A stretch of 64,000 nucleotides of DNA, from the NCBI RefSeq assembly GCF_000152705.1, contig NZ_CH672413.1, positions 434,001-498,000 of the forward strand. The letters are read 5' to 3'. Position numbers and translations under genes: made by a program. This stretch comes from Janibacter sp. HTCC2649 (GTDB lineage: Bacteria > Actinomycetota > Actinomycetes > Actinomycetales > Dermatophilaceae). How positions within the stretch are numbered: position 1 is the stretch's first letter; each line of letters opens with the position of its first letter. The notes beneath the pieces are model-generated. The model was not told the origin of the DNA. It saw only the letters and a program-made list of their open reading frames with translations, and ran no database searches. Of the stretch, positions 1 to 63,954 are shown one piece after another.

Positions 1-1692
1 GACGCTGAGCAGGGTGTTGGCGTCCGGCGGCAGGTAGACGCGGACGGTCTGTGCCTTCTTGTTCACGACGTGGTCGAGGAAGCCGGGGTCCTGGTGAGAG
101 AACCCGTTGTGGTCCTGCCGCCAGACGTGCGAGGTCAGGAGGTAGTTCAGTGAGGCGATGGGCCGACGCCACGGCACTTCGGCGGAGACCTTCAACCACT
201 TCGCGTGCTGGTTGAGCATGGAGTCGACGATGGGGATGAAGGCCTCGTAGCAGTTGAAGAGTCCGTGTCGGCCGCTGAGCAGGTAGCCCTCGAGCCAGCC
301 CTGGCAGAGGTGTTCCGACAACACCTCCATCACGCGCCCGTCGACGTCGAGGTGGTCGTCTCCGGCGCGGATCGGGAGGGCCCACGCGCGCCCTGATTGC
401 TCGAAGATGGCCTGCAGCCGATTGGACGCGGTTTCGTCAGGGCCCATGACACGGAAGTTGTGAGGGTTGTCGCGCACCACATCGCGCAGCCACGGGCCGA
501 GCGCCCCTGTCGCAGAGCGCAGTTCGCGAGCCGGCTCGCCGACGGGCACCTGGTAGTCGCGGTGCGCCGGCAGCACGAGGTCACGCAGGACGACTCCGCC
601 GTTTGCGTGGACGGACGCGCTCATCCGCAGTTCGGGGGCAGGCGCCAGCGCACGGATCTCGGCGCGGACGGCTCCCACCTCGTCGAAGAGTTCCTCCGGA
701 CGGTAGGACCGCAGCCAGTCCTCGAGGAGTCGGAGATGCTCTGGGTTCGTCCGGGGGGCGGCGATGGGCACCTGGTGCGAGCGGAACGAACCTTCGACTG
801 TGTGGCCGTCAACCGTGGCCGGTCCGGTCCAGCCCTTCGGGGTGCGAAGAACGATCATCGGCCATTGGAGGGGATGGCCGGCGCCCGTTCCGCGGAGCTC
901 GGCGAGGCGAAGGTATGCCGTGTCGAGGGCATCCGCTAGCGCCTCGTGCACTGCCACGGGGTCATCGCCCTCGACGAAGAGCGGGTCGTGGCCATGGCCG
1001 ATCAGGAGCGACCTGAGCACGCTCTCGGGCTGGCGCGCGAGGACCGTGGGGTTGGCGATCTTGTAGCCGTTGAGGTGGAGGATCGGCAGGACCGCACCGT
1101 CACGGGCCGGGTTGATGAAGGCCGTCGACTGCCAGCTCGCGGACAGGGCTCCGGTCTCGGCCTCGCCGTCACCGATGACGCACGCGACGGTGAGGTCGGG
1201 GTTGTCGAAGGCCACGCCGTAGGCGTGGGCCAAGGAGTAGCCCAGCTCGCCGCCCTCATGGAGCGAGCCCGGGGTGTGCGGAGACGCGTGGCTGGGGATG
1301 CCGCCGGGCGAGGAGAACTGGCGAAACAGCCGGGTGAGTCCCGCCGTGTCACCGGTGATGCTGGGGAAGAGGTCCGAGTAGGTGCCGTCGAGGTAGGCAT
1401 TCGCGACGACGGCCGGCCCTCCGTGCCCCGGCCCGGCGATGAAGACCGTCGGCGCGGCATGACGACGGATGGCGCGGTTGAGGTGGGCCCACAGGAGGTT
1501 CAACCCGGGTGAGGTGCCCCAGTGGCCCAGAAGGCGCGGCTTGATGTGCTCGGCCGCGAGGGGTTCTCGGAGCAGGGGGTTGTCGCGCAGATAGATCTGG
1601 CCGACGGAGAGGTAGTTCGCGGCTCGCCACCAGGAATCGACCCCCTCGAGGTCAGTCAGTGCTGCGGCGGGGGCAGGTGCGAGAGTCGTCAT
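1..1692 (-). CDS. xfp: Phosphoketolase (XFP family), C-terminus cut by the window
   Basis: Thiamine-diphosphate enzyme that splits xylulose-5-P and/or fructose-6-P with phosphate to give acetyl-phosphate and an aldose phosphate, in the cytosol. The 564 codons present are open to the window edge, out of about 800 expected. The N-terminus has the family signatures [30 protein letters not shown] ([17 protein letters not shown]) and the ThDP-binding GDGEAETG followed by HLNGYKI. I chose ATG 1692 because a DosR-like box is centred 42 bp upstream with a NANNNT hexamer between them, predicting a leaderless transcript; no Shine-Dalgarno is visible. It is divergent from the devS-like kinase. In a DosR-type regulon it would yield ATP through acetyl-phosphate when respiration is limited (inference). 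Confidence 0.95.
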
Positions 1693-1726
1693 GCCACCAA
1701 CGTTCACCAGACGAGGACCACCGTGG

Positions 1727-1742
1727 AGGGCCTTTGGTCCCT
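1727..1742. promoter_or_regulatory. DosR/DevR-like box 1, xfp/devS intergenic
   Basis: AGGGCCTTTGGTCCCT. The 14-bp core at 1728-1741, read on the minus strand, is GGGACCAAAGGCCC, 12 of 14 matches to the mycobacterial DosR core GGGACTWWAGTCCC. The core edge is 36 bp from the xfp ATG and 61 bp from the devS ATG. On the xfp side the hexamer AACGTT sits at the same offset as in the other boxes. On the devS side I find no matching hexamer. Confidence 0.75.
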
Positions 1743-1802
1743 GTTCGGGGTTTCTGACGTCCTTTGAGTGCGCTCGGAGGGTGAGCGGCATACATTGAGC
1801 GC

Positions 1803-62510: not shown

Positions 62511-62561
62511 GACATAGGATCGTCCGCGAGTCCTGAACGTTCGACAGCACGAGGAGACACC

Positions 62562-63320
62562 TTGTCCGGCCACTCCAAATGGGCGACGACGAAGCACAAG
62601 AAGGCCGTCGTCGACGCCAAGCGCAGCAAGCTCTTCGCCAAGCTGATCAAGAACATCGAGGTCGCGGCCCGCACCGGTGGCGGCGACATCACCGGCAACC
62701 CGACGCTCTACGACGCCATCCAGAAGGCCAAGAAGAGCTCGGTGCCCAACAACAACATCGACAACGCGGTCAAGCGCGGCTCCGGTGCGACGGCGGGTGG
62801 CTCCGACTGGGAGACCATCACCTACGAGGGCTACGCGCCCGGCGGTGTCGCGATCCTCATCGAGTGCCTCACCGACAACCGCAACCGCGCCGCCGCCGAG
62901 GTCCGCACCGCGCTCACCCGCAACGGTGGGCAGCTCGGGGACCCGGGCTCCGTGGCCTACGTCTTCGACCGCAAGGGTGTCGTCGTCGTCCCCAAGGGTG
63001 ACAAGAGCGAAGATGACATTCTCGAGATCGTGCTCGACGCCGGCGCCGACGAGGTCAACGACCTGGGCGAGGCCTACGAGATCGTGTCCGAGGCGACCGA
63101 TTTCGTGGCCGTGCGCAAGGCCGTCCAGGACGCCGGCATCGACTACGACTCGGCCGAGGCGTCGTGGGTCCCCAACCTGCAGATCGAGCTCGACCTCGAC
63201 GGGGCCAAGAAGATGATTCGCGTCATCGACGCCCTCGAGGACTCCGACGACGTGCAGGACGTCTTCGCCAACGGCGACATCCCTGACGACGTCCTCGCCC
63301 AGCTCAACGAAGAGGACTGA
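62562..63320 (+). CDS. yebC: YebC/PmpR-family translation/regulatory protein
   Basis: 252 residues from TTG 62562 with GAGGAG 6 bp upstream. [57 protein letters not shown] and the acidic C-terminus [14 protein letters not shown] are diagnostic. YebC proteins act on translation of stalling motifs or as regulators; in actinobacteria the gene precedes ruvCAB. Confidence 0.96.
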
Positions 63321-63441
63321 CCCACGGGGGGACCCGGCGCGAAAGCACCGAGCCCCAGCGTGTTGCTGCGCGCCGCCCTCCATCACGCTGTGTAGCGTGG
63401 CACCGAACACCTGTTCGGTTGCAATTTGGAAGGCGGCGCGC

Positions 63442-63954
63442 GTGCGCGTTCTCGGCATGGATCCCGGACTCACCCGGTGCGGCCTCGGCGTCGTCGACGG
63501 GCGGGCGGGTCGAGCGACGATGGTCGCGGTCGGCGTGGTGCGCACCCCCTCTGATGCGGTGCCGTCGCAGCGCCTGATCTTCCTCGAGCGCGAGCTCGAC
63601 GGCTGGCTCGACAAGTTCACCCCCGACGTCATGGCGGTGGAGAGGGTCTTCGCCGACACCAACGTCACCCAGGTCATGAACACTGCCCACGCGACCGCGA
63701 TCGCGCTCCTCACGGCCGGCAAACGCGGCATACCTGTCGTCTTCCACACCCCGACCGAGGTCAAGGCCTCGGTGACCGGCAGCGGTCGAGCCGACAAGGC
63801 GCAGGTCACCGCCATGGTGACCCGCATCCTCAAGCTGGACTCGCCGCCCAAGCCGGCCGACGCCGCCGACGCCCTGGCGTTGGCGATCTGTCACCTCTGG
63901 CGGGGAGCGGCCACCGCGCGTCTCGAAGCCCTGGCGAAGGCGAGCGTCCGATGA
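63442..63954 (+). CDS. ruvC: Holliday junction resolvase RuvC
   Basis: 170 residues from GTG 63442 with GGAAGG upstream. Catalytic acids: Asp7 in [11 protein letters not shown], Glu in [12 protein letters not shown], and the pair in [15 protein letters not shown]. It cuts Holliday junctions with RuvAB. The ruvA start overlaps its stop (ATGA). The Ile of KRGIPVVFH is encoded by the rare ATA inside a copy of the octamer. Confidence 0.96.

Follow-up and report, generated by a model that had tools for sequence, protein, structure and literature searches.

In the standard account, DNA uptake sequences spread through a genome by uptake bias combined with recombination, and PMC12236230 cites a paper of 2010 on molecular drive. 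Sequence-specific DNA uptake has been called an outlier, with Neisseria and Haemophilus being named (excerpt of PMC12040237), and for the DNA uptake sequences (DUS) conservation, rarity in acquired genes and a spacing resembling that of conversion tracts have been reported (excerpt of PMC2397512). Among the open-licence papers listed by literature searches, no title or beginning of an abstract reported uptake sequences for Actinomycetota, which is no proof of their absence. The present analysis concerns the octamer GTATGCCG in a stretch of 64,000 nucleotides (positions 434,001 to 498,000 of contig NZ_CH672413.1; hereafter the window) from a strain deposited as Janibacter sp. HTCC2649, the genus of which is Knoellia (Intrasporangiaceae in the NCBI taxonomy). 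We consider it likely that this word is the core of a self-DNA tag belonging to a DNA-uptake-sequence system.

The first-pass annotation of the window had counted 46 exact copies between positions 913 and 63733, 25 on the forward and 21 on the reverse strand, and our search recovered the same positions and numbers, corresponding to about one copy per 1.4 kb. Dinucleotide shuffles of the window (n=100) contained a mean of 0.76 and a maximum of four copies. Among all 8-mers of the window the word shows the strongest excess over an order-2 Markov model (46 versus 1.1 expected), and it also heads the order-3 list for 464 kb of the window's own genome (G000; 4,235,068 bases in seven contigs), with 257 copies versus 7.8 expected. 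In the complete genome we counted 1486 forward and 1496 reverse copies, altogether 2982, versus 59 (35/24) of the reversed word serving as control of the same composition. The genome-wide count, which the annotation had proposed to determine, is thus about fifty times the control and far from expectation. The word is short and non-palindromic, and its core is sharp: 17 of the 24 single-base variants occur at or below expectation, the most frequent one being 2.2-fold enriched (GTTTGCCG, 19 versus 8.6). No strand or replication skew was detected, neither genome-wide nor in the stretches totalling 864 kb of the 4.24 Mb that were sampled for the fine analyses (274/272). Across 38 stretches the strand balance is even tighter than chance (chi-square 16.3, lower-tail p 0.0008) because neighbouring words alternate in orientation, as described below. 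The copies are spread evenly over the sampled chromosome, and no clear bias in their position within the called genes of the sampled stretches was found.

The annotation had furthermore proposed that selection acts on the DNA word itself, and both the synonymous shuffle and the codon usage in word contexts support this view. Genes were called roughly by a simple codon-score script, yielding 287 genes (72% coding, 464 kb) for the synonymous shuffle and 784 genes (85% coding, 864 kb) for the analyses of codon usage, hairpins, flanks and frames; gene names within the window are labels of the first-pass annotation and unconfirmed. As claimed there, the copies are mostly genic and lie in several frames, 36 of the 46 being located in called genes (sense2 20, antisense1 11, antisense2 3, sense0 2). 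The rare codons named were present as well (ATA at 63726, 20069 and 6946, GTA at 30994), together with a further in-frame GTA at 6726, and the TAT-GCC and GCA-TAC frames occur as described. In the context G-Tyr-GCC-G the otherwise rare codon TAT accounts for 179 of 202 tyrosine codons versus 573 of 4123 elsewhere, and in the context CG-Ala-TAC the codon GCA accounts for 150 of 219 alanine codons versus 2599 of 31326 elsewhere. Shuffling synonymous codons within genes produced a mean of 12.9 and a maximum of 22 copies (n=100) versus 168 genic copies observed, so that the enrichment is no codon effect. Genic copies were found in all six frames, most of them in the two that encode Tyr-Ala or Ala-Tyr, and the density amounts to 1.14 per kb outside called genes, a fraction that includes genes missed by the script, versus 0.54 per kb inside.

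GTATGCCG is also preserved in relatives beyond its neighbouring sequence. Seven congeners provided stretches over the window's region, with 76.6-83.9% identity across aligned lengths of 10 to 43 kb. They retain the word at 27/34, 23/31, 19/23, 18/27, 19/26, 10/11 and 7/10 sites, altogether 123 of 162 comparisons, which are non-independent as the congeners are related; control 8-mers of the same letters are retained in 4494 of 15981 cases (28%). Among congeners, the word positions 0, 3 and 6, which are mostly synonymous, show differences in 0.09, 0.15 and 0.03 of the cases, while the matching positions outside the word differ more often (0.23-0.38 upstream, 0.19-0.37 downstream). Turnover of sites exists nevertheless, since the site at 44115 reads GTACGCCG in all five aligned congeners.

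Neighbouring copies obey an orientation rule. Within the sampled stretches of the window genome, neighbours 60-1000 bp apart point in opposite directions in 163 cases versus 56 in the same direction (p 2.6e-13), and counting all pairs at this distance gave 78 same-direction pairs versus about 160 expected and 194 opposite pairs versus about 160; at 2-4 kb the orientation is random. In a contiguous block of 344 kb each strand alone is spaced more evenly than chance (coefficients of variation 0.78 and 0.82), whereas both strands pooled are not (1.06). Karlin's claim of an even spacing is noted in PMC1939737 (excerpt). Among eight control 8-mers the inverted bias was shared only by ATGCCGTG, which overlaps GTATGCCG, while CGTCATCG and TCCTCGAC lean towards the same orientation. 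The alternation was repeated in other genera (127 opposite versus 52 same; 36 loci, nearly all comEC neighbourhoods, two duplicate stretches left out) and in an independent test stretch of 60 kb from G191 (23 versus 8, p 0.011); the congeners over the window's region gave 66 versus 14, which is not independent of the window. These observations suggest that the word acts directionally and that a second copy in the same direction within about 1 kb is of little use. The rule is new relative to the described uptake sequences, for which no such description was found.

Beyond the octamer, a weak extended motif is apparent in Knoellia. Codon-phase-corrected flanks of 399 coding sites, with expectations that assume independent codon positions, show an excess of A from -12 to -5 and of T at +8, +18/19, +24 and +36, a pattern lacking at 426 control sites that differ from the core by one base, where no excess goes beyond 0.08 (for A at +8). 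The 83 solitary sites outside called genes repeat these flanks, with A at 0.40 at -8 and T at 0.51, 0.33, 0.40 and 0.36 at +8, +13, +18 and +24, respectively, versus a background of 0.169. In a survey of 38 loci of other genera, two of them duplicates, it was mainly the T at +8 that appeared beside a genome's own word, and G033, a genome of the family carrying the related word GGATGCCG, shows +8 and +18 beside its own word, both without codon correction.

Close pairs of the word tend to form hairpins at gene ends. Within the 864 kb, neighbours at most 40 bp apart comprise 21 inverted pairs and one same-orientation pair (13.8 expected in any orientation); 17 of the 21 inverted pairs are intergenic, 16 of these adjoining at least one gene 3' end. 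The two hairpins pointed out by the annotation (47247/47273 and 49773/49796) are present and fold well (z -4.2 and -8.4), and five chosen inverted pairs, including these two, fold with z from -4.2 to -9.0.

The word is absent from a region of foreign character. A stretch of 37.9 kb (positions 148,598-186,525 of contig C1 of the window genome; L026-L028) contains no copy, although about 24 would be expected from the density in the block at 434-778 kb. It encodes a TraG-type coupling protein, an M23/SLT/NlpC peptidoglycan enzyme and an IS21 istA/istB pair as well as a TrbL match slightly under the cut-off, and on this gene content it is identified as a conjugative region. The adjoining stretch at 200-220 kb of C1 is word-poor, too, with two copies. 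In Neisseria such elements have been located via the distribution of uptake sequences (excerpt of PMC7371117). The conjugative region also contains Tad-like genes of its own, and a P-type ATPase gene lies directly outside. A further 15 kb without the word (L086:4795-19799), perhaps acquired, include a second cluster of the Tad-like kind with Flp pilins in tandem.

For the comparison among genomes, richness in GTATGCCG was defined as at least 300 forward-strand copies per genome; word thresholds were set by eye and kinship was ignored in all cross-genome statistics. All nine Knoellia genomes and 104 of the 186 genomes of the family are rich (332-2376 forward copies), exceeding the reversed word between about 2.5-fold (G023) and about 70-fold (G146). 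According to their names, the loci carrying the word belong to Knoellia, Terrabacter, Flexivirga, Pedococcus, Terracoccus and Metallococcus and in part to Phycicoccus, Intrasporangium, Humibacillus, Nostocoides and Tetrasphaera; the sampled loci of Janibacter, Marihabitans, Dermacoccus and Luteipulveratus do not carry it. Outside the family, none of 22 genomes of the order (highest count 79/88, control 91/93) and none of 194 genomes of the phylum (highest 196/190, control 92/84) is rich. Sharp contrasts occur even inside genera, with 10/9 copies in G118 versus 1829/1852 in G119, 17/20 in G065 versus 822/838 in G062, and 27/23 in G141 versus hundreds in its genus.

Lineage dialects of the word exist in these relatives. 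GGATGCCG, which differs from GTATGCCG by one base, reaches 1805-2258 copies per strand in five genomes (G024, G071, G082, G083, G033), and two further genomes (G084, G085) bear both words, with 983-1116 copies of GGATGCCG and about 600 of GTATGCCG per strand (GT and GG forms); two dialects in one genome have similarly been reported for Simonsiella muelleri (excerpt of PMC3630211). In the other 179 genomes of the family GGATGCCG occurs 111-674 times per strand and in most cases outnumbers the reversed word by a factor of two to three. It also marks a second family, f19: ten of its 19 genomes exceed 1000 copies per strand (including G220, G273 and G234; L244, L252), eight contain about 470-970 and G247 contains 237/248. 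This family is probably Microbacteriaceae, as suggested by loci of Microbacterium dauci and Agromyces albus, which hold 25 and 14 copies in 20 kb. An unrelated nonamer, CGAAGGGGG, is strand-balanced and reaches 396-985 copies per strand in each of the 16 genomes of group g63 (including G097) and of the three of g67 (G123-G125), while the other 167 genomes of the family contain at most 40 copies. It is carried by loci of Janibacter and Marihabitans (L005, L066-L071, L018), lineages without GTATGCCG. Altogether, 128 of the 186 genomes count as rich for one or more of the three words. The alternation of orientation shows the same lean for GGATGCCG in G033 (23 versus 11, p 0.058) and falls short of significance at other GGATGCCG loci (27 versus 23) and for CGAAGGGGG (19 versus 12).

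Further words were noticed in passing. In one locus (L058, G011), 20 kb contain 12 copies of GTATGACG (0.33 expected) along with 13 of GTATGCCG, and GTATGACG may be a further dialect. GTACGCCG is about fourfold over the order-4 expectation in two genomes without GTATGCCG (G122, G030; L008, L013, L082-L085) and may be a weak dialect or a codon effect. In small genomes of another family, f4, such as G246, G298 and G395, the copies of GGATGCCG exceed those of the reversed word by a factor of about five to eight (275/259 versus 34/33 in G246). For CGAAGGGGG, five inverted pairs at most 40 bp apart were found in 160 kb, with 1.5 expected in any orientation.

The window genome encodes a putative DNA-uptake apparatus. 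A comEA gene (L024:7838-8779; SLBB and HHH_3 domains) precedes comEC (L024:8776-11157), and a tad cluster (L087:9323-13920) comprises genes for a Tad/TadG-like protein, a TadF-like protein, TadE, a Flp-like protein of 70 residues lacking a Pfam match, two T2SSF proteins and a T2SSE ATPase. The TadF-like protein matches TadE under the cut-off and was named TadF by us; its AlphaFold model has a mean pLDDT of 89.7 and found no match in the PDB at E up to 0.001. According to excerpts of PMC4322843, the tad clusters of Micrococcus luteus, which the Knoellia cluster resembles, are needed for transformation. Among the 79 of the 186 family genomes that were examined, comEC is present in all and a TadE match in 78, and comEA was found in 40 of 41 comEC stretches. 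The apparatus is thus old and shared and does not predict the word. TadF was detected in 67 of 76 family genomes, namely in 37/37 GTATGCCG-rich and 30/39 other genomes (Fisher p 0.002, unadjusted for kinship), and a profile search matched 36 of 51 genomes of the order, again none of the nine lacking it, G033 included. TadF as sole determinant of the word was ruled out by the word-rich G033. A broken comEC in the word-poor G141 was likewise rejected, the contig ending at that point. The tad clusters of two word-poor genomes (L146 of G030, L148 of G206) are similar apart from the TadG-like gene, which was not recognised there.

The first-pass annotation had likened the word to the DNA uptake sequences of Neisseria and Haemophilus. 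In the window genome this likeness is supported by strand balance, the sharp core, gene-end hairpins, conservation at orthologous sites, absence from the conjugative region, the A/T flanks and the ComEA/ComEC/Tad locus, and in relatives by the dialects. We favour a role in DNA uptake because a preserved strand-balanced word with phased flanks, hairpins, absence from a conjugative region and switching dialects matches that pattern. A receptor of the competence apparatus in the envelope or on the surface would prefer double-stranded DNA bearing the core and the weak extended motif (A-rich from -12 to -5; T near +8, +13, +18/19, +24 and +36). Tagged DNA would then be pulled in, most likely via the conserved Tad/Flp pilus and ComEA, enter through ComEC and recombine. 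Tagged alleles would be taken up more often, so that words accumulate and are kept by biased gene conversion and/or selection, while mobile elements spreading by means other than transformation would stay without words and a shift in receptor preference could move a whole genome to a new word. Each copy may serve mainly one side or one strand, as indicated by the spacing of same-orientation copies at less than 1 kb. DNA uptake is probably the step acted on, and the Tad-pilus route, the receptor and a directionality of uptake are probable in the same sense. With somewhat less assurance, we lean towards the wider proposal that a large part of Micrococcales possesses a Gram-positive self-DNA recognition that originated independently of Neisseriaceae and Pasteurellaceae, with words switching between lineages (GTATGCCG, GGATGCCG, CGAAGGGGG), a new type of Tad-pilus or envelope receptor and a built-in direction that would account for the alternation below 1 kb.

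Several results weigh against a role in DNA uptake. We know of no transformation of Knoellia, and a literature search for it gave none among the matches listed. The genes comEC, comEA and TadE had to be rejected as cause of the word, being near universal and as common in word-poor genomes; no TadF match was obtained by profile in the GGATGCCG-raised genomes G033 (complete), G083 and G312 (both fragmented), and alignments of TadE, TadF and TadG showed no obvious split by word among the alignments listed. The depletion in mobile DNA comes from one island, and 58 of the 186 family genomes fall under the thresholds for all three words, although GTATGCCG clearly exceeds the control in several of them (G159 with 293/324 versus 18/22; also G147, G075, G077 and G059-G061). 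The hairpin part of the likeness held for the window genome and was not seen in the other genera sampled: in 20 comEC stretches of other word-rich genomes (383 kb) one pair at most 40 bp apart was found versus 5.5 expected in any orientation, and 36 loci of other genera contained six inverted and two same-orientation close pairs, so that among the genomes sampled the excess is a feature of Knoellia. Knoellia is also the only genus in which the extended flank motif is clear, and GGATGCCG, which is no dialect there, has the T at +8 as well in this genus (no codon correction). Finally, orientation had no effect on uptake in a modelling study of Haemophilus influenzae (excerpt of PMC1939737), so that the alternation of orientation is no recognised feature of such sequences.

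The main rival explanation is a Chi-like signal of recombination or repair, in which the word stops or redirects a nuclease of the AdnAB/RecBCD type and is needed both ways at short spacing. Chi acts directionally, and a directional act is likewise implied by the orientation rule and the one-sided flank motif; the absence from foreign DNA fits as well, and a Chi-like act on DNA that enters the cell or is broken would lead to much the same orientation rule. However, Chi sites follow the direction of replication, whereas the word shows no strand skew at all, so that the strand bias of the Chi type is not found. Closely related genera moreover use different words, in one case an unrelated one, which would be unusual for an essential repair enzyme, and pairs forming gene-end hairpins would be unexpected. 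We therefore regard a Chi-like role as unlikely. A codon-pair, mutational or compositional effect without function could draw on the prevalence of the Tyr-Ala and Ala-Tyr frames, but it is refuted by the counts: the synonymous shuffle, the occurrence in six frames, the higher density outside genes, the conservation far above same-letter controls and the restriction of the inverted bias to the one overlapping control word leave it a next to negligible chance.

Two further explanations concern marks on the chromosome. HIP1 of cyanobacteria is a palindromic octamer of similar density that is spread through genes and has methylation attached to it, and in a comparable manner a methyltransferase could have enriched GTATGCCG as a restriction word or as the kind of epigenetic mark that HIP1 has been proposed to be, lineage-specific words being expected where methyltransferases change. 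Restriction words are normally avoided, though, and GTATGCCG is no palindrome, unlike HIP1; nor would the weak motif reaching to +36, the hairpins and the orientation rule have a place, which makes a methylation word very improbable. The even spread over the sampled chromosome and the high conservation would suit a chromosome-organising site bound by a nucleoid-associated or segregation protein, but such a site, in which we place very little credence, meets with the lack of strand skew and the unrelated word in Janibacter and Marihabitans, and gives no reason for the absence from an integrated element or for terminator-like hairpins. Neither the methylation nor the nucleoid explanation predicts the observed set of features.

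If the word indeed is a DNA uptake sequence, this independent case in high-GC monoderms would show that genome-wide self-tagging evolves repeatedly, and natural transformation would turn out to be of major importance in soil genera that are not known as transformable. Adding the word to donor DNA would then provide a practical genetic tool. If the orientation rule reflects one-sided uptake, it predicts a side-dependent transformation, and it gives a hint about uptake direction that can be tested directly. Whether such words spread by drive or by selection could furthermore be studied in natural replicates, which comprise the two similar dialects, the replacement by an unrelated word, the genomes in which two words coexist and the congeners poor in the word.

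The copies within the window are compiled in the table. A palindrome, TTGCGCAA, additionally occurs four times at intervals of 29 to 34 bp between 56743 and 56842 and has the look of an operator array.

Table. Copies of GTATGCCG in the window, with their retention in aligned congeners (gene labels from the first-pass annotation).
Feature	Position	Strand	Observation
word	913..920	+	exact match; uncalled/noncoding
word	1786..1793	-	exact match; kept 1/1
word, reads GTG TAT GCC GCG	3704..3711	+	exact match
word, in-frame GTA	6726..6733	-	exact match; changed in 3/3
word, ATA in - strand gene (CoA-transferase)	6946..6953	+	exact match
word	7481..7488	+	exact match
word	8923..8930	-	exact match
word	14147..14154	+	exact match
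word	14554..14561	-	exact match
word	18618..18625	-	exact match
word	19057..19064	+	exact match
word, ATA in - strand gene (thiolase)	20069..20076	+	kept 6/6
word	20315..20322	-	kept 6/6
word	22615..22622	-	exact match
word	23245..23252	+	exact match
word	26807..26814	+	exact match
word	26887..26894	-	exact match
word	27687..27694	+	exact match
word	30644..30651	-	kept 6/7
word	30795..30802	+	kept 2/7
word, in-frame GTA (pabB)	30994..31001	+	kept 6/7
word	31886..31893	+	exact match
word	33546..33553	-	exact match
word	34958..34965	+	exact match
word	35115..35122	-	exact match
word	35677..35684	+	exact match
word	37498..37505	-	kept 6/6
word	37751..37758	+	kept 6/6
word	39676..39683	+	kept 6/6
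word	41552..41559	-	exact match
word	41862..41869	+	kept 5/5
word in window genome only	44115..44122	+	GTACGCCG in 5/5
word	45334..45341	+	kept 5/5
word	46170..46177	-	kept 5/5
intergenic hairpin	47247..47280		words 47247-47254 (+), 47273-47280 (-); both kept 5/5
intergenic hairpin, convergent called genes either side	49773..49803		words 49773-49780 (-), 49796-49803 (+)
word	52632..52639	+	exact match
word	53639..53646	-	kept 5/5
word	58991..58998	-	exact match
word	60179..60186	-	kept 4/4
word	60339..60346	+	kept 4/4
inverted pair outside called genes	62450..62510		words 62450-62457 (+), 62503-62510 (-)
word, ATA in + strand gene (ruvC)	63726..63733	-	exact match

Compared with the described systems, GTATGCCG resembles the DUS of Neisseriaceae in its thousands of copies, inverted terminator-like pairs, conservation, absence from recently acquired genes and dialects (excerpts of PMC3630211, PMC2397512 and PMC7371117). 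It differs from them, the receptor of which is the minor pilin ComP, in its core, in the monoderm high-GC host, in the probable association with a Tad/Flp instead of a type IVa pilus and in the orientation rule. The hexamer ATGCCG is common to the 12-base DUS of Neisseria and the present word, an overlap that we take as chance. The uptake signal sequences (USS) of Pasteurellaceae likewise combine a short core with A/T-rich flanks and more than 1000 copies (excerpt of PMC7811141) and are conserved like DUS (excerpt of PMC2397512); their core is a different one, and GTATGCCG has single phased A and T preferences instead of A/T tracts and a host without outer membrane. With HIP1 it shares the form of a very abundant octamer found throughout genes, from which it differs by its direction, its non-palindromic sequence and the presence of flanks, hairpins and dialects. 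For Micrococcus luteus, terms referring to uptake sequences are absent from the two papers searched. Its transformation by means of a Flp/Tad pilus appears close to the system proposed here, since Knoellia possesses comEA, comEC and a tad cluster with a similar arrangement of genes (excerpt of PMC4322843).

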